This document shows positions 3,923 to 16,583 of a stretch of DNA of 19,455 nt, piece by piece (positions within the stretch are counted from its first letter, which is position 1; the number at the start of each line of letters is the position of its first letter). This DNA is from Bacteroidaceae bacterium (GTDB lineage Bacteria > Bacteroidota > Bacteroidia > Bacteroidales > Bacteroidaceae). The stretch covers positions 1 to 19,455 of the forward strand of contig JAFZUB010000193.1 of the NCBI GenBank assembly GCA_017618515.1. The letters are read 5' to 3'. Made by a program: the position numbers and the translations under genes. The notes beneath the pieces were generated by a model. It did no database searches. It was given only the letters and a program-made list of their open reading frames with translations, and was not told where the DNA came from.

Positions 3923-3932
3923 TTAAGAGTTA
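3919..3932. repeat. 7-nt periodic junction repeat (2 units)
   Basis: GGAGTTA AGAGTTA, two heptads in register (AACTC-type on the minus strand). It overlaps the stop codon of the LpxA-like gene. Confidence 0.45.
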
Positions 3933-4700
3933 TTTCCCAATGATACCAAGCTGCGAGGTCTGCAGAAACTCTACTATTGAGTCTATCTCAGCGCTGCCTT
4001 CGACTTGCGAGCGCACCTGCAGGATTCCATCTTCAAGGGATGTCTTGCCATTGAACACGAGGCGGTATGCGTTGGCTATCTGTCGCTGCACGTCTTCCTC
4101 GATGCCAGCATTGGTAAGGATGGTGGCATTGACTCCACCGTACTCAATGGGATTGTGTGTGGCAATGATAAATGGTGGCACGTCACGAGAGAAGCGGCAC
4201 CCGCTCTTGATCATGGCGCAGCGCCCTACGCGGGCTCCGGGATTAGCGATGACGTTGGAGGTAAGGATGGCATCGTCGTGTATCTCCACACGCCCAGCTA
4301 TCTTGGTGCCATAGCCTATGACGGCGTTGTTGAAGATGTGTGCATCGTGAGAGATGTGCACACCCTCCATGATGCAGTTGCCGTTACCTATAATGGTACG
4401 GTCGCCGCTATGGGTAGCACGGTTGATCACAACATTCTCGCGAATGATGTTATGGTTGCCTATTACCAACTCAGTTGCCTCGCCGGTATAGCTGAAATCC
4501 TGCGGCACGGCTCCGAGCACGGTACCTTGATACACGGTATTGTCAACACCGAGAGTGGTGCCGGCCATGATGCTGACATAGGGATAAATGACGCAGTTGT
4601 CGCCTATTACGGTGTTTGCTTCAATGTAGGCGAAAGGATATACTGTGACGTTGCTGCCTATCTTGGCTGCAGGGTCAATGTGTGCTTGGGGACTTATCAT
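3930..4700 (-). CDS. Divergent LpxA-like acyl-ACP:UDP-GlcNAc O-acyltransferase family protein
   Basis: 256-residue left-handed beta-helix protein of the LpxA type, the enzyme that puts the first acyl chain on UDP-GlcNAc for lipid A. Hexapeptide repeats run from about residue 2 to 175. The family block PQDFSYTGE (66-74) is present, as is GVHISHD with the expected catalytic His118 and Asp119. The C-terminal helical domain (about 190-256) has IANAYRLVF. Differences from textbook LpxA: the HQF segment is replaced by NPG near residue 153, the His of AGH is Arg (AGR, 137), and the KRRGFS segment after GVN is TNAGIE. A housekeeping lpxA in Bacteroidales usually follows an lpxC-fabZ fusion; this one instead closes an RND efflux operon, 39 nt after the outer-membrane factor gene. 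It may be a second, specialised acyltransferase. I therefore give no symbol. Confidence 0.85.
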
Positions 4701-4706
4701 CTTTTT

Positions 4707-4741
4707 AGAGTTCGAGAGTTAATTCTCAATTGTCAATGATT
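4707..4741. repeat. 7-nt periodic junction repeat (5 units, both orientations)
   Basis: AGAGTTC GAGAGTT AATTCTC AATTGTC AATGATT, in unbroken 7-nt register, fills the gap between the outer-membrane factor gene and the LpxA-like gene. The first two units have the opposite orientation to the last three. Confidence 0.7.
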
Positions 4742-6119
4742 ATTCTCCTCCACCGCCGAGGGCGTAGTAGAGGTTTACAACAGCCTGCATCTTGTTGAAA
4801 TCGTCGGCGACCTTGGTAAGCTGGCTGGAGAGGAGTGCCTGCTGTGCACTGATAACCTCGAGATAGGTAGCTCCGTTGGTCATGAGCAACTCGACAGCCT
4901 CTACATTGGCTTCGAGGGTGGCTGTGCGCTCTGCCTCTATCTCGGAGAGGCGTGCAGAGGTCTCGTACTGCTTGAGAGCGTTGCTGACCTCGCTGCCTGC
5001 ATTGAGTATAGACTGCTGCCAGGCTATATAAGCTTTCTCTTCGTCGGCCTTGGCTACCTTGAGGCCTGCCACGAGCTGGCCATGCTGGAAGATGGGCTGC
5101 ACGAGTGAGCCGACGGCCTGAGCGAGCAGTTTGCCGGGATTGACAACGCCGGCTCCGCCAGAGTTGGTCCACGCAGCGGTGCCAGTGATAGTGATATTGG
5201 GATAGAAGGCTGCACGGGCCTTGTTGACATTATAGAAGCAGCTGGCGAGTGCCATCTCTTTGGCGTGCACGTCGGGACGATTGCCGAGGAGCTGTATGCC
5301 CACTCCAGTGCTGAGGTTAGAAGGCAGCGACTGTTGCTCGAAGGTGGAGCGGTCAATATGCTGCGGCGCCTGTGCGAGCAGGAGGCTGAGGGAATTCTCC
5401 ACCTCGCGTATCTGACGCTCTATCTCAGGGATAGAAGCCTGCACGGCGAGGTAGTTTGCTTTGGCGGAAAGGACGGAAGCCTCGGTGTAGCCGTAAAGTT
5501 GCTTCATGTCCTGCATCTTCTCCCAGGTCTCCAGAGTGAGGCTCTCGGTCTGGCGTGTTATCTCGAGCTGCTTGTCAAGCATGAGGAGGGTGTAGTAGCA
5601 GTTGGCTACGCCAGCTATGATGCTGGTCTTAACAGCTCGCTGATAGTCGCGTGTCTGTATGAGCACGGCCTGCTGCGCTCTCTTGGCATTGGTGAGGCTG
5701 CCGAAGAGGTCGATGGTCCACGAGGCCTGGATGGGCAGCGTGTAGGTCTGCACGGCTTTGTTGTTATCCCATGATGACAGAGTACCGCTGGGGGCAAAGA
5801 CAAACGATGGCACATATGCCAACTTGGCAACGGAGAGCATGGCCTCAGCTTGCTTCACTGACAAGGCTGCAGTAAGAAGGTCACTATTGTTGGCCAACGC
5901 ACTGTCAATAAGCACTTGCAGCTTGGGGTCGGTAAACACTTCGCGCCACGGTGTGGAGGCAAGTGTGGTCGTGTCTGTTACCACAAGAGTGTCAAGGTCG
6001 TTGCTGAAGTCGCGATAGAGGCCCTCGGTATTGACATCGGGGCGCTTGTACTTATTATATAGTCCGCAACTCTGCAGAAGAGTACACAATACTATTATTA
6101 TATATAAGGTGTGTTTCAT
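4740..6119 (-). CDS. RND efflux outer-membrane lipoprotein, TolC/NodT-type
   Basis: Outer-membrane channel of a tripartite efflux system, 459 residues. The N-terminus MKHTLYIIIVLCTLLQSC is a lipoprotein signal with lipobox LLQSC and acylated Cys18. The following sequence (YKRPDV, TPWREVFTDPKLQVLIDSAL) and the C-terminal repeat of the same theme fit the NodT/CusC subfamily. FGSLTNAKRAQQA and the conserved block beginning GNRPDVHAKEMALASCFYNV belong to the periplasmic helical barrel. A start at 6140 would add seven residues encoded only by the junction repeat, so I use 6119, where the signal peptide begins. It lies 35 nt after the pump gene and 39 nt before the LpxA-like gene, all in one operon. 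Confidence 0.95.
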   Translation of the reverse strand: MKHTLYIIIVLCTLLQSCGLYNKYKRPDVNTEGLYRDFSNDLDTLVVTDTTTLASTPWREVFTDPKLQVLIDSALANNSDLLTAALSVKQAEAMLSVAKLAYVPSFVFAPSGTLSSWDNNKAVQTYTLPIQASWTIDLFGSLTNAKRAQQAVLIQTRDYQRAVKTSIIAGVANCYYTLLMLDKQLEITRQTESLTLETWEKMQDMKQLYGYTEASVLSAKANYLAVQASIPEIERQIREVENSLSLLLAQAPQHIDRSTFEQQSLPSNLSTGVGIQLLGNRPDVHAKEMALASCFYNVNKARAAFYPNITITGTAAWTNSGGAGVVNPGKLLAQAVGSLVQPIFQHGQLVAGLKVAKADEEKAYIAWQQSILNAGSEVSNALKQYETSARLSEIEAERTATLEANVEAVELLMTNGATYLEVISAQQALLSSQLTKVADDFNKMQAVVNLYYALGGGGE

Positions 6120-6148
6120 TGAACATTGAACATTGAGCATTGAACATT
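6118..6148. repeat. 7-nt periodic junction repeat (4+ units)
   Basis: ATTGAAC ATTGAAC ATTGAGC ATTGAAC ATT in exact register, between the pump gene and the outer-membrane factor gene. On the minus strand it reads as AATGTTC units, and its ATG triplets create a false upstream start for the outer-membrane factor. Confidence 0.85.
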
Positions 6149-6154
6149 CGGGCT

Positions 6155-9100
6155 TTACGACTCTCTGACTTTCTTCGGGTTAGTATATTGCTTGAGCTCG
6201 GTGTCGCCGGAACCATCGACGAGGCCGATGAAGTGCATAGGACTAACTTTTTCCTGCAGCCACTGGAAGATAACGAACAAGCAGGGCACCACAAGCACCT
6301 GGAGTATCATGCCGATCAGCATACCACCCACTGCGGAGGCTCCGAGCGTAGAGTTGCCGTTGGCCCCCACTCCGCTTGCGAACATCAGCGGTAGCAGACC
6401 GACTATCATGGCCAGCGAGGTCATGAGAATAGGTCGCAGACGAGCCGATGCACCAAGGACGGACGACCACTTGATAGCCATACCCGTTTGGCGACGTTCG
6501 AGGGCGAACTGCACGATAAGGATGGCGTTCTTTGCCAAGAGGCCGATGAGCATGATGAGTGCTATCTGGGTGTAGATATCGTTGGAGTGGCCGAAGATGT
6601 TGGTAAACAGGAATGCTCCTGACAGGCCGAACGGAATAGATAGTATTACCGCTAGCGGCAGGATGTAACTCTCATACTGCGCACTAAGGATAAGGTAGAT
6701 AAATAGGAAGCATAGCACGAAGATGAGGGTGGTGTTGTTTGATGCCTCGCTCTCCGAGCGGCTGAGGCCTGAGTATTCGTAGCCGTAACCTGTGGGCAAG
6801 GTCTGCGCAGCCACTTCCTTCACTGCCTGCATAGCATCGCCGGTGGAGTAACCATCATTGGGCGCTGCGTTGACGTTGATGGCGGTGAAGAGGTTAAAAC
6901 GGTTGATGTTTGACGGGCCGTACACTTTCTTCATATTAATAAAGCTGCTGACGGGAGCCATCTGGCCGTTGATGCGCATATAGATGCTGGAGAGTGAGTT
7001 CTCGTCGATGCGTGTCTCGGGCGAGGACTGCACCATCACGCGGTAAAGCTTACCATAGGCGTTGAAGTTGCTAGCATAAAGTCCGCCGAAATAACCCTGC
7101 AACACGAGCATCACATCGCGGGGGGTGGTGCCTGCTTTAGTACATTTGGCAGCATCGACCTCGAGCATATACTGTGGATAGGACGAGTTGTAGGATGTCA
7201 TCGCATATTGTATCTCGGGGCGCTGGTTGAGGGCGCCGAGGAACTGCATAGTGATGCCGAAGAACTTATCAACGGAGCCACCGGTCTTATCTTGCATCGA
7301 GAAACTAAGACCGTTGGAGGCGCCGTAGCCGGGAATCATCGGCGGCTGGAATGCCATTATCTGGGCATCCTTGAGAGAGGCTGTCTGCGCAAAGATTTTC
7401 TTTATCACCTCAGCGGAAGACAGGCTCTTGTCCTTGCGCTGGTCAAAGTCTTTCAACTTGATAATGAACGTGGCTTGGTTGGAGCCCTGGCCTGCCATAA
7501 AGTTGAAACCGATAACCTGAATGGAGGTCTGCACAGCAGGGTTGGTATTGAGCATCTCCTGCACTTTGTTGGCGAGGTTCATGGTCTTGTCCTTGCCAGT
7601 GCCGGGTGCCATGGATATGGTGCAGAACACGGTGCCGGTGTCCTCATCTGGAACGAGACCGGTGCGGGTGGTCTGCAGCAGCACTACCATCACCACGATG
7701 GATGCTGCCACCACAGCGATGGTGATGACTTTTGCCTTGATGAAGAACTCCACCAGAGTGCGATATTTAGAGAGCATCTTGTCGTAGGCCGTATTGAACG
7801 CGGCGTGGAAACGGTCGATGACACTCATCTTCTTGTCGGGGTTGTGCGGCTTAAGGAATATGGCGCAGAGAGCCGGCGACAGGGTGAGGGCGTTGATGGC
7901 GGAGATTATGATAGACACAGCCATCGTCACACCAAATTCACGATAGAAAGAGCCCGATGTGCCACCCACGAAGCTCACCGGCACAAATACAGCCGCCATC
8001 ACGAGGGTGATGGAGATGATGGCACCAGATATCTCGCTCATGGCATCGGTGGCAGCCAAGTGGGGCGACTTGTAGCCCTGGTCAAGCTTGGCATGCACTG
8101 CCTCCACCACCACGATGGCGTCGTCCACCACAATGGCGATGGCCAGCACCAATGCCGACAGCGTAAGCAGGTTGATACTGAATCCAAACAGATTGAGGAA
8201 GAAGAATGTGCCCACCAGCGACACCGGCACAGCCACCATCGGGATAATAGTGGAGCGCATGTCTTGCAGGAAGATGTACACCACCAATATCACCAGCAGG
8301 AAGGCGATAAGCAGAGTCTCCACCACCTCGCTGATGGAAGCATAGAGAAACTCTGTCACATCCTGACCATAGACAATCTTCATGCCCGGCGGAAATGACT
8401 GCTGCAACGACTCAATCTCCTTCTTTACATTCTTTACTATCTCATTAGCGTTGGAGCCCGCCATCTGGGTGACCATCATCGTCACAGAAGGCTTACCGTC
8501 ACACAGGTTGTTGACAGTATATGACTGGGCGCCCAGCTCCACCTTGGCCACATCCTTTACACAGAGGTTGGTGCCGTCGGGGTTAGAATATACCACGAGG
8601 TTCTCAAACTCCTCCACCGTCTTGAGGCGACCAGTATAGCGCAAGATATACTCAAACTGCGTGTCGCTGCTCTCGCCCAGTTTGCCAGGCGCAGCCTCGA
8701 TATTCTGGGTGGCCAGCACATTGGAGATGTCGGCGGGCACAAGGCTGTGCTCCTTCATCTTCACAGGGTCGAGCCATATACGCATCGTGTAGGTCTTGGC
8801 TCCAAAACCCTCCACCGAGCCCACGCCGCTGATACGCTGCAGCACTGGCGCGATGTTGATGAGGTTATAGTTGGTGAGGAACTTCTCGTCGTACTGCCCC
8901 TTGTCAGATGTTAGGGCGTAGATGAGCACCTGCGAAGTCTGGCGCTTACGGGTGGTGACACCCACCTGCACCACTTCGGCAGGTAGCAGGTTGGTAGCCT
9001 GACTCACACGGTTCTGCACATTCACTGCAGCCATATCGGAGTCGGTGCCCTGCTTGAAATAGATAGTGATTGAAGCGGAGCCGTCGTTGGTGGCCGACGA

Positions 9101-9340
9101 GGTCATATAAGTCATGTCCTCCACACCGTTGATGCTCTCCTCCAGCGGAGCCACCACCGAATTAAGCACCGTCTCGGCATCCGCACCGGCATACGTAGCC
9201 CACACCATGATAGTAGGCGGTGCAATATTGGGATACTGCTCTACAGGCATTCCTGTGAGGCCTATCACACCCAGCACCACAAACAATATACTAATCACTG
9301 TGGACAGTACCGGTCGCTTTATAAAGTTGTCTAACTTCAT
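6155..9340 (-). CDS. RND multidrug efflux pump, AcrB/MexB-type (HAE1)
   Basis: Inner-membrane proton-driven pump, 1061 residues, the full length for the family. The N-terminus FIKRPVLSTVISILFVVLG is the first transmembrane helix, and MPVEQYPNIAPPTIMV leads into the periplasmic porter domain. The proton-relay residues are present: the Asp pair in IVVDDAIVVVE (406-407, TM4) and the Lys of LLAKNAILIVQF (937, TM10). The second repeat carries the usual RPILMTSLAMIVGLLPL segment. Its adaptor gene lies 37 nt upstream and its outer-membrane factor 35 nt downstream. Likely substrates are drugs, bile salts or detergents, but the sequence does not say which. No local regulator gene (TetR, AraC or two-component) is visible. 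Confidence 0.97.
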   Translation of the reverse strand: MKLDNFIKRPVLSTVISILFVVLGVIGLTGMPVEQYPNIAPPTIMVWATYAGADAETVLNSVVAPLEESINGVEDMTYMTSSATNDGSASITIYFKQGTDSDMAAVNVQNRVSQATNLLPAEVVQVGVTTRKRQTSQVLIYALTSDKGQYDEKFLTNYNLINIAPVLQRISGVGSVEGFGAKTYTMRIWLDPVKMKEHSLVPADISNVLATQNIEAAPGKLGESSDTQFEYILRYTGRLKTVEEFENLVVYSNPDGTNLCVKDVAKVELGAQSYTVNNLCDGKPSVTMMVTQMAGSNANEIVKNVKKEIESLQQSFPPGMKIVYGQDVTEFLYASISEVVETLLIAFLLVILVVYIFLQDMRSTIIPMVAVPVSLVGTFFFLNLFGFSINLLTLSALVLAIAIVVDDAIVVVEAVHAKLDQGYKSPHLAATDAMSEISGAIISITLVMAAVFVPVSFVGGTSGSFYREFGVTMAVSIIISAINALTLSPALCAIFLKPHNPDKKMSVIDRFHAAFNTAYDKMLSKYRTLVEFFIKAKVITIAVVAASIVVMVVLLQTTRTGLVPDEDTGTVFCTISMAPGTGKDKTMNLANKVQEMLNTNPAVQTSIQVIGFNFMAGQGSNQATFIIKLKDFDQRKDKSLSSAEVIKKIFAQTASLKDAQIMAFQPPMIPGYGASNGLSFSMQDKTGGSVDKFFGITMQFLGALNQRPEIQYAMTSYNSSYPQYMLEVDAAKCTKAGTTPRDVMLVLQGYFGGLYASNFNAYGKLYRVMVQSSPETRIDENSLSSIYMRINGQMAPVSSFINMKKVYGPSNINRFNLFTAINVNAAPNDGYSTGDAMQAVKEVAAQTLPTGYGYEYSGLSRSESEASNNTTLIFVLCFLFIYLILSAQYESYILPLAVILSIPFGLSGAFLFTNIFGHSNDIYTQIALIMLIGLLAKNAILIVQFALERRQTGMAIKWSSVLGASARLRPILMTSLAMIVGLLPLMFASGVGANGNSTLGASAVGGMLIGMILQVLVVPCLFVIFQWLQEKVSPMHFIGLVDGSGDTELKQYTNPKKVRES

Positions 9341-9350
9341 CAGAATTAAC

Positions 9351-9378
9351 TTTTAGAACTTTCGGACTTTCGAACTCT
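9351..9378. repeat. 7-nt periodic junction repeat (4 units)
   Basis: TTTTAGA ACTTTCG GACTTTC GAACTCT in register between the adaptor and pump genes. It ends on the first base of the adaptor stop codon (minus strand). More degenerate than the other copies. Confidence 0.5.
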
Positions 9379-10601
9379 TAGTGTTTACTCAAATCCACAC
9401 CGCCCATCTGGATGGACTGCTGCACCCTGGCGGCAGACTCCTCCTCGGTGATGGGCTTAATCTCCATGCCGTCCTGCAGACGGGTAACACCCTCCACCAC
9501 GATGCGGTCGCCAGCCTTCAGACCAGCAGTAACGATATAGTTGGTGCCGTCGTTGACGTCAGCCACCTGCACCACAGTGTAGCTTACCTTGTTGTCCTTG
9601 CCCACAGTGTACACAAACTTCTGGTCCTGCACCTCCACCGTGGCGCTCTGCGGGATGACTATCACATCCTTGGCTACATAGGGCACCAATATCTTGCCCG
9701 AGCCGCCAGTCTTGAGCAGATGCTGCGGGTTTGGGAAATCGGCGCGTACAGCCACCGAGCCTGTTTTCTGGTCAATCACACCACTGATAGTGCTCACCTT
9801 GCCAGGACGGTCGTACACCGAGCCGTCGGCCAACTGCAGCTGAACGGCAGGCATTGATGCCAGTATTGTCTTACTGTCACCGGAGGTGCGAGTCATGTCA
9901 AGCATCTGCTGCTCGGTCATCGAGAAATATACATACATCTCGTCAATGTTAGACACCGTGGTCAGCGGCTCCACACTCGACCCACTCACCAATGCACCTA
10001 CACGGAAGGGGATGGAGCCCACTACGCCATTGGCGGGACTCTTCACGTAACAGTACGACAGATTTTGGCGGGCAGCCGTCAGAGCAGCCTGCGCCGACAC
10101 CACGCCAGCCTTGGCAGTGGCTACAGCGGCCTCAGCCTGCTTCATAGCATTGACAGCCGTCTGAAATTCGTAGTCGCCAATGATATTCTTCTGCTTCAAC
10201 TGCTGCTTGTTTTCATAGGTAAGCGTAGCAGTGGCTAGAGCCGCGTTGGCCTGGTTGAGCGACGCGTTGGCCTGGTTGACGGAAGCGCTGGCCTGGTTGA
10301 CAGCCTCGCGGTAAGTGACATCGTCAATCACAAACAGCGTCTGCCCTACCCTCACGTTGGCACCCTCGTCAACACACACTCTCACGATGTTGCCCGACAC
10401 ACGGGGACGTATCTCTACATCCTGCTTGCCCTTTATGGTGGCGGGATAAGTATAGTTCAACTCCGGCGAGTCGGTAGTCACCGTCCTCACTGCAAACTCG
10501 TTCGCCTGAGGCTGCTGGCCCCCCTGCTTACCGCAGCTGACCAACATCATTGCGCTGACAAGCACCATTGCAGCCGAACCGACACTAAAAAGCTTTTTCA
10601 T
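9378..10601 (-). CDS. RND efflux periplasmic adaptor (membrane-fusion lipoprotein)
   Basis: AcrA/MexA-type adaptor, 407 residues, that links the pump to the outer-membrane channel. The N-terminal signal ends in LVSC with acylated Cys23. The split biotinyl-lipoyl domain shows VEIRPRVSGNIVRVCVDEGA (about 62-81) and returns at SPANGVVGSIPFRVG (188-202). Between them is an alpha-helical hairpin (about 97-182) with the heptads VNQASAS, VNQANAS and LNQANAA. The beta-barrel and membrane-proximal domains follow, with the late motif LKAGDRIVVEGVTRLQDGM. First gene of the adaptor-pump-channel-LpxA-like operon. A TTTG-N12-TAATTTCG promoter-like site lies 46 nt before the start, and the uracil operon's terminator lies beyond it. 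Confidence 0.96.
   Translation of the reverse strand: MKKLFSVGSAAMVLVSAMMLVSCGKQGGQQPQANEFAVRTVTTDSPELNYTYPATIKGKQDVEIRPRVSGNIVRVCVDEGANVRVGQTLFVIDDVTYREAVNQASASVNQANASLNQANAALATATLTYENKQQLKQKNIIGDYEFQTAVNAMKQAEAAVATAKAGVVSAQAALTAARQNLSYCYVKSPANGVVGSIPFRVGALVSGSSVEPLTTVSNIDEMYVYFSMTEQQMLDMTRTSGDSKTILASMPAVQLQLADGSVYDRPGKVSTISGVIDQKTGSVAVRADFPNPQHLLKTGGSGKILVPYVAKDVIVIPQSATVEVQDQKFVYTVGKDNKVSYTVVQVADVNDGTNYIVTAGLKAGDRIVVEGVTRLQDGMEIKPITEEESAARVQQSIQMGGVDLSKH
10243..10305. repeat. Three 21-bp tandem repeats inside the adaptor gene
   Basis: Three consecutive units, each beginning GCG(T/C)TGGCCTGGTTGA, encode the VNQA(S/N)AS-type heptads of the coiled-coil hairpin. The first 15 bases of the unit are nearly identical in all three copies, which suggests recent unit duplication. 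Confidence 0.8.
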
Positions 10602-12804: not shown

Positions 12805-12825
12805 AATGTTCAATAGTCAATGTCT
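12805..12825. repeat. 7-nt periodic junction repeat (3 units)
   Basis: AATGTTC AATAGTC AATGTCT in register between the fusion PGT gene and uraA. It overlaps the fusion gene's stop codon. Confidence 0.65.
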
Positions 12826-14662
12826 AGAATTTCTTCCCAAATATGATGCTCAGGAACGTCAGTCCCAATATCTTGACATCAAACCACAGCGAGCGATGCT
12901 TAAGATAGTAGAGGTCCAGTTCCAGTCGCCGCAACATCTTCTCCATAGTGTCGGTGTAGCCGTTGTAGAGGGTGGCATAGGAGGTTACGCCGGGGCGTAT
13001 CTGATAGAGGAATGCGTAGCGCGGGTCTTCTTTCATTATCTGGCTGATATAGTAACTGCGCTCCGGGCGGTAGCCCACAAACGCTATGTCGCCTATAAAC
13101 ACGTTCCACAGCTGGGGCAGCTCGTCCAGATGGTGTGCCCTGAGGAACTTGCCCACCTTTGTCAGACGCGGGTCGTTGTCTCCGTTAGCGTGGCTCAGCG
13201 CAGGGCCCAGCGTCTCGGCATCCAATCGCATGGAGCGGAACTTATATATATAAAATGGATGTCCGAACCTGCCCACCCTTTCCTGCTTGAAGATAGCAGG
13301 GCCGCCGTCATCAATCTTTATCAAGATGTAACTCAGCAGCATCATCGGCGAGAACACGATGAGGCAGATGAAAGATATCACCAAATCCATGCCGCGCTTC
13401 ACATGCCGCTCCAGGCCGTTCATGCCATCGGGTATGAAAGCGATATTGTCCTCCAGCACCTTGTCGGGCGGCAGATTCATGTCGCCGTAGGTCTGCGCCT
13501 TACGCTTGAGTGTCTCATGCGGCAGATTGGCATACCAGGAGTCTTCGCCGTAGGCTTTCTCCCACTCTCTGTAGAATCCTTTCCTTTGATGTTCATGGAT
13601 GAAATAGTTGAGCACCAGATGGATAGTAATCCACAACGCCACATCGAGCAATAGCATGATGGTAGGATTCCAGTGAGAGAGCACCCCGTAGGTGTTCATC
13701 ACCACAAACATGCCTATCAACCCCGCTATGGTCACACCTATCATCCGTCGCGGCATACCGGTACGCAACAGCTTGTGGTTAAATTGGTTACGGTCGGGGC
13801 GGTCCAGCGTACGGTTGTCTCTCACACGACTACTAATCACACGGATGATATCGAGCATCGGCACAAACAGCGCACCGAGGCATATCATCAGCATGCCCTC
13901 TGGCATACGCTCGCTATGGCTCAGGCCGATGGTGTGGTAGCTGACTATATAGCCCAGCACATAAGCCCCCGAGTTGCCCATCAGCGTATTGCCCCAGTTG
14001 CTCGAGAAGAAAGATCTGAAACACATGGGGATAGCCACGCCCAATGTGGCAGCGGCTATAAAGCTGATAAGCGTAGAGTCATACCAAATACTGAACAAGA
14101 GGAAAGTAAACACAATGATAGTGCCTACCCCACTGCTCAGGCCGTCAATACCGTCGAGCAGACTGAACGCCTCAGTTATATAGCATACCAGCAACACGGA
14201 TAGCGGTATGCCGATGTAGGGCGACAACTCTTCAATACCAAACAAGCCATGCAGATTGTCTATCCACAATCCCGTGGCAGGAAACATCATGGCGGCAAGG
14301 AGCAAGGTACCCACCTTCACCAGTCCGCCTGTGCCGTGCAGGTCGTCCTTCAGTCCGGTGATAAACAGTATCGAGCAACCCACGATGAGCTGCATGATAC
14401 GCATCGACGCAGGCTCCACCCTGACACGCAGTTCCGCTATCTGAAACAGATAGGGCAGCGAGATACTGGTGCACAGGGCAATCAGTATAATGGGGAAGAA
14501 CGCTATTCCACCTATCATCACACCATTATTTAAGTTGTCGGCGCTCTCAGGCAAGAAATTCTTCTTCTTCGAGGCCGTCAGCCGCAGATTGGGAATGATA
14601 AGCAGTCCCAACACAAATGAAATAAAGAATGGTGTTATCTTCAGCAGAATAGAAAAATCCAT
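12824..14662 (-). CDS. Fusion: degenerate WecA-like membrane domain + monotopic sugar-phosphate transferase
   Basis: 612 residues. The N-terminal ~350 residues are a polytopic WecA/MraY-family (PNPT) domain. It keeps GLKDD (103-107) and FSLLDGIDGLSSG (167-178), but has MGNSGA (228-233) where active members have MGD, and NQFNHKLL (292-299) where its neighbour has HIHHKLL. It also lacks the DERxxH segment near residue 40. Residues ~420-612 are a complete monotopic phosphoglycosyltransferase (bacterial sugar transferase, WcaJ/PglC-like): KRGMDLVIS, FKQERVGR, YKFRSM, the catalytic Asp-Glu in LDELPQLWN (513-514), GDIAFVGYRPE and RPGVTSYATL. That half would transfer a sugar-1-phosphate to undecaprenyl phosphate, starting a surface glycan. 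A start at 14680 would add six residues from the junction repeat; I use 14662, preceded by GAGGA. It follows the GT2 gene in the operon. Confidence 0.9.
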   Translation of the reverse strand: MDFSILLKITPFFISFVLGLLIIPNLRLTASKKKNFLPESADNLNNGVMIGGIAFFPIILIALCTSISLPYLFQIAELRVRVEPASMRIMQLIVGCSILFITGLKDDLHGTGGLVKVGTLLLAAMMFPATGLWIDNLHGLFGIEELSPYIGIPLSVLLVCYITEAFSLLDGIDGLSSGVGTIIVFTFLLFSIWYDSTLISFIAAATLGVAIPMCFRSFFSSNWGNTLMGNSGAYVLGYIVSYHTIGLSHSERMPEGMLMICLGALFVPMLDIIRVISSRVRDNRTLDRPDRNQFNHKLLRTGMPRRMIGVTIAGLIGMFVVMNTYGVLSHWNPTIMLLLDVALWITIHLVLNYFIHEHQRKGFYREWEKAYGEDSWYANLPHETLKRKAQTYGDMNLPPDKVLEDNIAFIPDGMNGLERHVKRGMDLVISFICLIVFSPMMLLSYILIKIDDGGPAIFKQERVGRFGHPFYIYKFRSMRLDAETLGPALSHANGDNDPRLTKVGKFLRAHHLDELPQLWNVFIGDIAFVGYRPERSYYISQIMKEDPRYAFLYQIRPGVTSYATLYNGYTDTMEKMLRRLELDLYYLKHRSLWFDVKILGLTFLSIIFGKKF

Positions 14663-14664
14663 AT

Positions 14665-14706
14665 AATCCTCAATTCTCAATGTTCAATACTCAATGTTTA
14701 ACGGTC
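14665..14706. repeat. 7-nt periodic junction repeat (6 units)
   Basis: AATCCTC AATTCTC AATGTTC AATACTC AATGTTT AACGGTC: six heptads in perfect register between the GT2 gene and the fusion gene. The last unit covers the GT2 stop codon and its final residues. Confidence 0.85.
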
Positions 14707-15483
14707 AACGTGCACCAGCCGCAACTTACCTTGCATCGTGGCCCATATCTTGGGCAGCAATCGGCGCAGCACGATCAGCCCCGACTGCGAATAGCCGTTT
14801 TCTTGCAAAGCACGCTTGATGCCGAGGTTGCCGCGTATGATATTGCGCAGACTGCCGGTGCTCTCGCCGCCCATGCGCATGTTTACGAAGTAACGGTGTA
14901 TATAGCGATTGCTCAGTCCCGCCACCTCAATGAAGCGAAGCATCAGGTCGAAGTCCGCCGACACAGGGAAACTCGTGTTGAATACGCCCAAACGCTCGTA
15001 GCACTCGCGGCGGGCATAGAATGTTGGGTGCGCCGGATGCCATCCGCGCAAGAAAGCGCCCTTCTTATACTGCGAGCCTTTCCAAACCCTCACCACATGC
15101 GTTATGTCGTCAGCCTTCACAAACTTCAGGTCGCCATACACACAGTCCACTGGCTGGCCCTCCATTGCTCGGTTCACCTCCTCAAGCACATGTTCGTCGT
15201 AGTAGAAGTCATCAGAGTTCAGAAAGCCTATCACATCGCCGGTAGCCATGCGGATGCCCTTGTTCATCGCGTCATACACTCCGCTGTCCTTCTCACTCAT
15301 CCATCGCATACGGCCGCCAAACTGCGGCTCATACTTTTTGATGATATCGAGCGAGTTGTCAGAGCTGGCTCCGTCAACCACAATATACTCAATATCCTTA
15401 TGAGTCTGCGCCAGCACACTGCGAAACGTATCCTCCACTGTGCCTCCGCTATTATATGTCGTGGTTATAATCGAAATCTTCAT
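14698..15483 (-). CDS. GT2-family glycosyltransferase
   Basis: GT-A fold glycosyltransferase of family 2, 261 residues, cytosolic or membrane-associated, expected to add a sugar from a nucleotide donor to a lipid-linked acceptor. Visible motifs: the N-terminal strand ISIITTTYNSGGTVEDT (3-19), VVDGASSDNS (35-44), DSGVYDAMNKGI (66-77) and the metal/donor site FLNSDD (87-92). HPTFYARRE and SADFDLMLRF follow in the acceptor half. The sequence resembles the WcaE/WbbD-like group, but donor and linkage cannot be read. The start overlaps the stop of the upstream WecA-type gene by ATGA, so the two are coupled. It probably adds the second sugar to the lipid carrier made by a neighbouring enzyme. Confidence 0.93.
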   Translation of the reverse strand: MKISIITTTYNSGGTVEDTFRSVLAQTHKDIEYIVVDGASSDNSLDIIKKYEPQFGGRMRWMSEKDSGVYDAMNKGIRMATGDVIGFLNSDDFYYDEHVLEEVNRAMEGQPVDCVYGDLKFVKADDITHVVRVWKGSQYKKGAFLRGWHPAHPTFYARRECYERLGVFNTSFPVSADFDLMLRFIEVAGLSNRYIHRYFVNMRMGGESTGSLRNIIRGNLGIKRALQENGYSQSGLIVLRRLLPKIWATMQGKLRLVHVDR

Positions 15484-16583
15484 AACTCAATTCTCAATCT
15501 CCGATTCACTCCCCACCATATCAGCAGGTCGAGCAACAGGATAAGGTTAATCTTCACTCGGTTGTCCACTCCGATGTCAGCCACTGCCAACACTATGTTA
15601 AGCACCACCAGCGCCACATCCAGCAGCACTATCGTCACCAAGGTGCGCGTGGCACTGTATCCCATTCGCAACAGCTTATGGTGAATATGCGTCTGGTCGG
15701 GCAGGAAAGGATTCACGCCTCTCCTTATGCGGCCCGCCATCACCCTCACCGCGTCGAAACACGGGATGATAATCAAGCAAAACGCTATCACCGGCCACTG
15801 CACCTCACTGTATGCCTCGCCGCCCTTGCGCATCGACATGAATATCACCAGAAAAGCGATAATCAGTCCCATCGTCTGGCTACCGCCGTCACCCATGAAT
15901 ATCTTCGTGTGATTGCGCGTGCTGCCAAACTTGTTGAAGCAGAAGAACACCGCCAGCGACACAGCCAGCGCAAACGACAGCACAGCCATGATATGCTGCC
16001 CCGTCATCAAGAACAGAGCCCCTATCACCACCGTGGCGATGAAGCCCAAAGCCGACGCCAGACCGTCGATGCCGTCAATCAGGTTGAATGCGTTGATGAT
16101 ATACACCACCAGCAACACAGACAGCGGCTTGCCCACCCATGGCGACAGAGCCCCGATACCAAATAGGCCGCCCATATCGTTGATCCAGAAGTTGCCCACC
16201 ACCACAATCAGCAGTGCGCTCAACAGCTGAAACACAAACTTCATCTTGTAGCCCATGTGCTTGATGTCGTCCCATATGCCCGAGAAGTAGATAATCAGCG
16301 CCGCGGCAATCAACGCCCAGTACTGCAGCCAACCGCTCAAGACCGTCAGGCAACACCTTATATCCTCGCTGTCAGACATCAGCACCGCCACAACCAGCGC
16401 CACCAAAACAGACAAAATAAACGCACTGCCTCCCAACCTCGGCACTTCACCCGAGTGGACAGTACGTTCGTCAACAGTGTCACACAGCTTTTTCTTCAGC
16501 GACAGACGGATAATCAGGGGCACCATCAATGCCGTTAGAATCGCACTGACAATCACCGGTACTATGATGCTCAGCAAATCCAT
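15480..16583 (-). CDS. Undecaprenyl-phosphate sugar-1-phosphate transferase, WecA-type
   Basis: Polytopic inner-membrane enzyme of the WecA/TagO family, 367 residues. It transfers a sugar-1-phosphate (GlcNAc-1-P in WecA) from a UDP-sugar to undecaprenyl phosphate, releasing UMP. All signature motifs are intact: VDERTVHSGEVPRLGG (37-52), SGIWDD (101-106), AFNLIDGIDGLAS (165-177), FMGDGGS (229-235, metal Asp232) and THIHHKLLRMG (298-308). The first gene of the polysaccharide module, it ends in an ATGA overlap with the GT2 gene. An AGGAG lies close before the start codon (2-nt gap), unusual for this phylum. The last residues are encoded by a junction repeat. The sugar could be another N-acetylhexosamine, so I give no symbol. 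Confidence 0.93.
   Translation of the reverse strand: MDLLSIIVPVIVSAILTALMVPLIIRLSLKKKLCDTVDERTVHSGEVPRLGGSAFILSVLVALVVAVLMSDSEDIRCCLTVLSGWLQYWALIAAALIIYFSGIWDDIKHMGYKMKFVFQLLSALLIVVVGNFWINDMGGLFGIGALSPWVGKPLSVLLVVYIINAFNLIDGIDGLASALGFIATVVIGALFLMTGQHIMAVLSFALAVSLAVFFCFNKFGSTRNHTKIFMGDGGSQTMGLIIAFLVIFMSMRKGGEAYSEVQWPVIAFCLIIIPCFDAVRVMAGRIRRGVNPFLPDQTHIHHKLLRMGYSATRTLVTIVLLDVALVVLNIVLAVADIGVDNRVKINLILLLDLLIWWGVNRRLRIEL
15489..15502. repeat. 7-nt periodic repeat inside the 3' end of the WecA-type gene
   Basis: AATTCTC AATCTCC, two heptads in register just inside the coding end. They encode the final residues of the protein on the minus strand. Confidence 0.45.

Follow-up and report, generated by a model that had tools for sequence, protein, structure and literature searches.

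We identified, in a 19,455-nucleotide stretch of DNA from a Bacteroidaceae bacterium (contig JAFZUB010000193.1, hereafter the window), a gene whose 612-residue product joins a half of the polytopic PNPT type to a monotopic phosphoglycosyl transferase (monoPGT). Polytopic and monotopic phosphoglycosyl transferases (PGTs) are structurally distinct superfamilies that catalyse a first membrane step of the same type, and undecaprenyl phosphate is their limited, shared substrate. On balance, we consider it probable that the fused protein is the initiating PGT of a surface polysaccharide pathway in which catalysis falls to the C half, with the N half a pseudoenzyme that serves as a membrane module. 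For an initiator of surface polysaccharide synthesis, this is an unfamiliar build. The fusion is real and conserved, has a narrow distribution, and represents a new build within a known enzyme type. Residue counts given below refer to 143 distinct fused sequences (146 rows before identical or contained sequences were dropped), with gaps reducing the number at some positions. The parts of the gene are as follows.

12824..14662, minus strand: fused gene, 612 aa, PNPT-like half plus monoPGT (open reading frame, Pfam, homologues)
13598..14662, minus strand: N half, residues 1-355, degenerate PNPT (WecA/MraY fold)
13433..13666, minus strand: residues 333-410, comprising a long final helix (modelled at 333-378) and a linker that bears a YGTMGLP-like family motif (model, motif)
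12827..13432, minus strand: C half, residues 411-612, monoPGT core
13346..13351, minus strand: S438-P439, Ser in 142/143 and Pro in 143/143 fused sequences
13121..13126, minus strand: D513-E514 catalytic dyad, kept in 143/143 fused sequences

Architecture and distribution of the fused gene

The frame opens with an ATG at 14662 and its stop codon ends at 12824; an alternative TTG start at 14680 would give a protein of 618 residues. The uninterrupted frame reported in a preliminary description of this DNA is therefore real on the minus strand, but the plus strand of the same interval is interrupted by stops. The claim that this frame joins two PGT classes was borne out by Pfam, which placed PF00953 at residues 91-245 (E 2.9e-17) and PF02397 at residues 422-607 (E 7.2e-58; 195.5 bits against a cut-off of 27), while TIGR03025 and TIGR03023 cover only residues 414-610. 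A sequence search of the whole fusion against a solved-structure library gave monoPGT matches only, and the PNPT match was obtained with a WecA-like profile and by a fold search. The N half thus has both the PF00953 match and the PNPT fold; by Pfam it has no PF13727 and does not show the N-terminal build of large monoPGTs.

The C half belongs to the monotopic superfamily, with PF02397 above the gathering score and the Asp-Glu dyad present. It carries KQERVGR (459-465) and HHLDELPQL (510-518), and S438-P439 is presumably the Ser-Pro of the re-entrant membrane helix. These features support the earlier view that this half is intact, and it most likely transfers sugar-1-phosphate to undecaprenyl phosphate through the dyad.

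The same architecture is found well beyond the window. Among the best 120 of 841 database matches at E <= 1e-3, both Pfam domains were present in 120/120, and most of these proteins, which come from several sources, are 608-616 aa long. In a contig scan of 80 loci (L001-L080), in which class counts are minimum values, the fused gene was found in at least 25 (L001-L023, L026, L027); two of these end at contig edges (L017, L023) and one is a natural N-truncation (L022), while L028-L080 have the core without the PNPT half. The 25 fused loci belong to Bacteroidales, many of them from the rumen, and the carriers are some gut and rumen Bacteroidales.

Within a sample of 301 genomes of the family of genome G001 (itself included), seven had a stop-free match through both halves (G001, G002, G008, G161, G176, G190 and G218, the match in G190 ending at a contig edge). 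One further genome carried an N-truncated form (G259) and two had inner stops (G009, a split case, and G202). At the order level, 1 of 393 genomes matched at E <= 1e-130, namely the centre genome itself; since at most three candidates were scored per genome, copies may be missed in this search. A PNPT-monoPGT fusion was not found in the titles and abstract openings of the matching papers listed, among which only PMC7484181 carries both Pfam numbers; the monoPGT network of O'Toole et al. 2021 may list one.

Active-site residues of the N half

The preliminary description had called the N half dead-looking in catalytic terms while noting that it keeps GLKDD and LLDGIDGL and has no DERxxH segment. 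We found the motifs GLKDD at 103-107, SLLDGIDGL at 167-175, LMGNSG at 227-232 and PDRNQFNH at 289-296, and no DERxxH stretch in the window protein. The positions concerned, all from the alignment, are listed here.

14342..14347, minus strand: D106-D107 of GLKDD, kept
14153..14173, minus strand: E164, S167 and D170; the Asn pair of NxxNLIDGIDGL is replaced (N164E, N167S) and D170 is kept
13973..13975, minus strand: N230, MGN in place of MGD
13775..13798, minus strand: PDRNQFNH (289-296) instead of PDxxHIHH, last His kept

We assigned five positions to the UDP-sugar/Mg side of the old active site, and these are lost across the fused set: N164 is kept in 0/141, N167 in 18/141, D230 in 3/142, H293 in 2/143 and H295 in 7/143. 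None of the five is kept in 111/141 sequences, one in 30/141 and two in 0. The window protein has S167, N230, Q293 and N295 and so lacks the PNPT catalytic residues. Other PNPT positions are largely preserved, including D106 (117/139), D107 (139/139), K116 (129/139), D170 (140/141), H296 (131/143) and N292 (146/146 rows), and D106, D107, K116 and D170 occur together in 115/139. The change of QFNH for HIHH is therefore as described for two of the three His residues, but the last is kept. In addition, at position 164, where the unfused proteins of the comparison have Asn, 115/141 fused sequences carry Glu, a newly conserved residue within the old active site. Across the whole N half, dN/dS is 0.05-0.09, indicating purifying selection.

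A comparison set of 163 sequences combined 31 fused rows with 132 unfused PNPTs (103 closest database matches of 330-450 aa, 24 from family genomes, three neighbours and two split copies). D106, D107, N167, D230, H293, H295 and H296 were all kept in 132/132 of the unfused proteins; of the 31 fused rows, N167 was kept in 1, D230 in 3, H293 in 2 and H295 in 1. D37, R42, P48 and R49, which stand in for the DERxxH region and the PRxGG behind it, are all changed in the window and were kept in 0/29, 1/29, 0/31 and 2/31 fused rows, respectively. N217 and F227 are also changed in the window (0/31 kept for each).

Position 167 we take, from motif spacing, to be Asn185 of DPAGT1. By our reading of a WecA-like profile against solved MraY, together with motif spacing, N167, D230 and H295 would correspond to N171, D231 and H289 of Bacillus subtilis MraY, which are listed as catalytically important (PMC5039524). 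According to the same source, H289R lowers activity by three orders of magnitude or abolishes it. In DPAGT1, Asn185 and Asp252 are reported to chelate Mg2+; Asn185Ala and Asn185Asp leave 1.2% and 0.7% activity, changes at Asp115/Asp116 retain at least 10%, and D252N has five-fold higher activity than wild type (PMC6218659). MGN is present as described, but by itself it does not show death of the N half, since the DPAGT1 D252N variant is more active, a caution that one residue is not enough to declare an enzyme dead. The case therefore rests on the loss of the Asn pair, which the preliminary description had not listed, and of H295. On these grounds, a dead N half is supported by sequence across the fused family.

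Natural variants, origin and role of the N half

In nature the same core is found bare (about 209 aa, in many relatives) or behind another N module, which can be a four-helix Lg-type module, a soluble module of about 130 aa or a GT2 glycosyltransferase. Three loci with the Lg-type module (L028, L042, L054) are covered by TIGR03025 over almost their entire length, with scores above the cut-off for L042 and L054, in keeping with the earlier proposal that the N half stands in place of the N-terminal module of WcaJ/WbaP enzymes. The soluble module, which has no Pfam match, was seen at L029 9698-10705, L076 9575-10618 and similar Alistipes/Parabacteroides loci. Two small-monoPGT-core genes lie in tandem at L070 9995-11341.

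At L034 9218-10672 (also L097 and the database cluster P0234, with 40 members), a GT2 domain lies in frame with the fusion linker and core and runs straight into fusion residue 390, the PNPT half being missing. A linker motif that we derived from the fused set was present in 117/120 fused proteins compared with 1/54 relatives without the PNPT half, the single case being L034. Because this motif is shared, L034 very likely derives from a fused ancestor that lost its PNPT half. Among the best 120 of 7976 database matches we also observed another, distinct set of GT2-monoPGT fusions (P0235-P0240, 469 aa), which lack the linker motif. N-truncated forms of 344 aa (L022 10004-11038, L095 1510-2544, P0244) begin at fusion residue 268 and lie next to an unrelated gene, and the missing N-terminal part was not found upstream of them. 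Together, the split, truncated, GT2-joined, four-helix and bare forms provide natural controls on one core.

In a tree of 98 PNPT domains built by a quick method, a branch with SH-aLRT 100 (stem 0.94) set the 31 fused N domains apart from all others, and they sat among WecA-like proteins of Bacteroidales. Neighbouring WecA-like genes and both split copies were placed away from them, and an intact WecA-like neighbour as parent of the N half was ruled out, since three such neighbours lie at a distance from the fused clade. Resolution was weak in a tree of 84 monotopic cores: the core of L020 grouped with Lg-type cores, and the two split cores, on long branches, fell among the fused cores. The N domain thus gives good support to a single fusion event, on which the C domain does not decide.

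Like the large monotopic PGTs WbaP, WcaJ and EpsZ, which are described as initiating enzymes of polysaccharide pathways, the fusion has a PF02397 core with an Asp-Glu dyad behind an N-terminal membrane module (PMC10942596, PMC12802240). Those enzymes have a four-helix bundle and PF13727-type domain, whereas the module of the fusion is a PNPT-fold pseudoenzyme. The fusion also differs from the small monotopic PGT PglC, which has no N-terminal module, and from WecA, MraY and DPAGT1, since the window N half lacks the Asn pair, the MGD Asp and two of the three HIHH His residues and is joined to a monotopic PGT. It resembles the bifunctional monoPGTs (the Bi-PGT class of O'Toole et al. 2021, as cited in PMC10942596) in having an extra domain on a monoPGT core. 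Unlike in that class, the extra domain comes from the other PGT superfamily and appears non-catalytic, its catalytic residues having been lost; it may still have a function other than catalysis.

The pattern of kept and lost residues favours a structural or lipid role for the N half. We infer a former WecA-type protein that has kept its membrane fold and several residues of the old active site, has lost those for UDP-sugar and Mg2+, and would now act as a built-in membrane module where its kin carry a four-helix, soluble or GT2 module or nothing. Its probable job is to anchor, orient or dimerise the enzyme, and it may keep undecaprenyl phosphate close by. The preservation of D106 and K116 in most sequences while the donor side is lost suggests, without proving, a retained contact with undecaprenyl phosphate. 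The Lg-PGT bundle of WbaP is reported to belong to the dimer interface (PMC10942596), and dimerisation may be a control point in EpsZ/EpsW (PMC12802240). MraY and DPAGT1 are described as dimeric (PMC10942596, PMC6218659), so by analogy the PNPT fold could likewise serve in dimerisation. Sequence or prediction shows the fusion, the pattern of residue loss, the fold, the purifying selection, the gene context and the replaceability of the N module; the activity and substrate of the C half, the order of the sugars, dimerisation and the holding of lipid are inferences.

A second reading, possible if less than probable, sees the N half as a passive relic or a simple membrane anchor, its helices kept only to hold the C half at the membrane and with no ligand. 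The natural forms that lack all or most of it, the bare core of many relatives and the drift of active-site positions among fused proteins are consistent with this, but purifying selection extends over the whole N half, and conservation of D107, D170, N292 and E164 seems beyond the needs of a bare anchor. More doubtful is a carrier-lipid receptor that captures undecaprenyl phosphate via the D106/K116 side and then either passes it on to the monotopic transferase or gates that enzyme; were this so, one PGT superfamily would have become the acceptor-feeding or undecaprenyl phosphate-sensing part of the other. We consider it improbable that transferase activity persists in the N half, with changed substrate or metal use, in a bifunctional protein. 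The preserved PNPT fold, the largely kept D106/D107 and K116, and the tolerance of DPAGT1 to changes at Asp252 and Asp115/Asp116 would allow it, but the loss of N164, N167 and H295 and the reported severity of the DPAGT1 Asn185 and MraY H289R changes speak against it. An assembly or annotation error joining two genes can be dismissed: in L024 and L025 a PNPT gene does precede a distinct monoPGT gene, but these PNPTs are intact in their motifs and diverged from the fused N halves, and the fused frame recurs in the 120 two-domain homologues and the 25 or more loci.

Several observations weigh against our preferred reading of an initiating PGT with a non-catalytic membrane module. L034, without the PNPT half, and L022 and L095, with most of it gone, indicate that some lineages can dispense with the N half and that persistence of the C half does not strictly depend on it. 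Variation is also seen on the lipid side, D106 being altered in 22/139 and K116 in 10/139 fused sequences, and D107 and D170 may be merely structural. Fused cores do not form one clade in the C-half tree (4 changes, weak support), and confidence in the predicted model of the C half is low in part. Moreover, a GT2 homologue is not upstream in 7 of the 21 other fused loci with enough upstream DNA (L006, L009, L011, L013, L016, L020, L027).

A natural join of PNPT and monoPGT in which one half is off offers a system to study the accessory modules of initiating PGTs, and is also useful for asking how undecaprenyl phosphate reaches them.

Gene neighbourhood

Between a permease gene (uracil type, by eye) and an SRP54 gene, the window contains only the fused gene and the following two.

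14698..15483, minus strand: GT2 glycosyltransferase gene (PF00535), directly upstream of the fusion
15480..16583, minus strand: separate WecA-like gene with intact GIWDD, NLIDGIDGL, FMGDGG and PDQTHIHH (Pfam, motifs)

The GT2 gene is separated from the fusion ATG by 35 bases, and its product most likely attaches the next sugar. In 14 of the 21 other fused loci the gene immediately upstream is a GT2 homologue, and in six of these 14 the two genes overlap by 4 bases. By eye, the fused gene is elsewhere often the last of a glycosyltransferase-like gene run, and close downstream lie genes for a Wzz/GNVR/AAA protein in L010 and for a polysaccharide export protein in L012. At L006 9233-10591, a WcaJ-like large monoPGT gene (TIGR03023, 407.9 bits against a cut-off of 410.75) lies directly upstream, so that two initiating-type transferases stand in tandem. 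Elsewhere in the window, an RND efflux operon (adaptor, pump and outer-membrane factor, by eye) occupies 4740-10601 on the minus strand; after it comes, at 3930-4700, a UDP-GlcNAc acyltransferase-like gene (Pfam).
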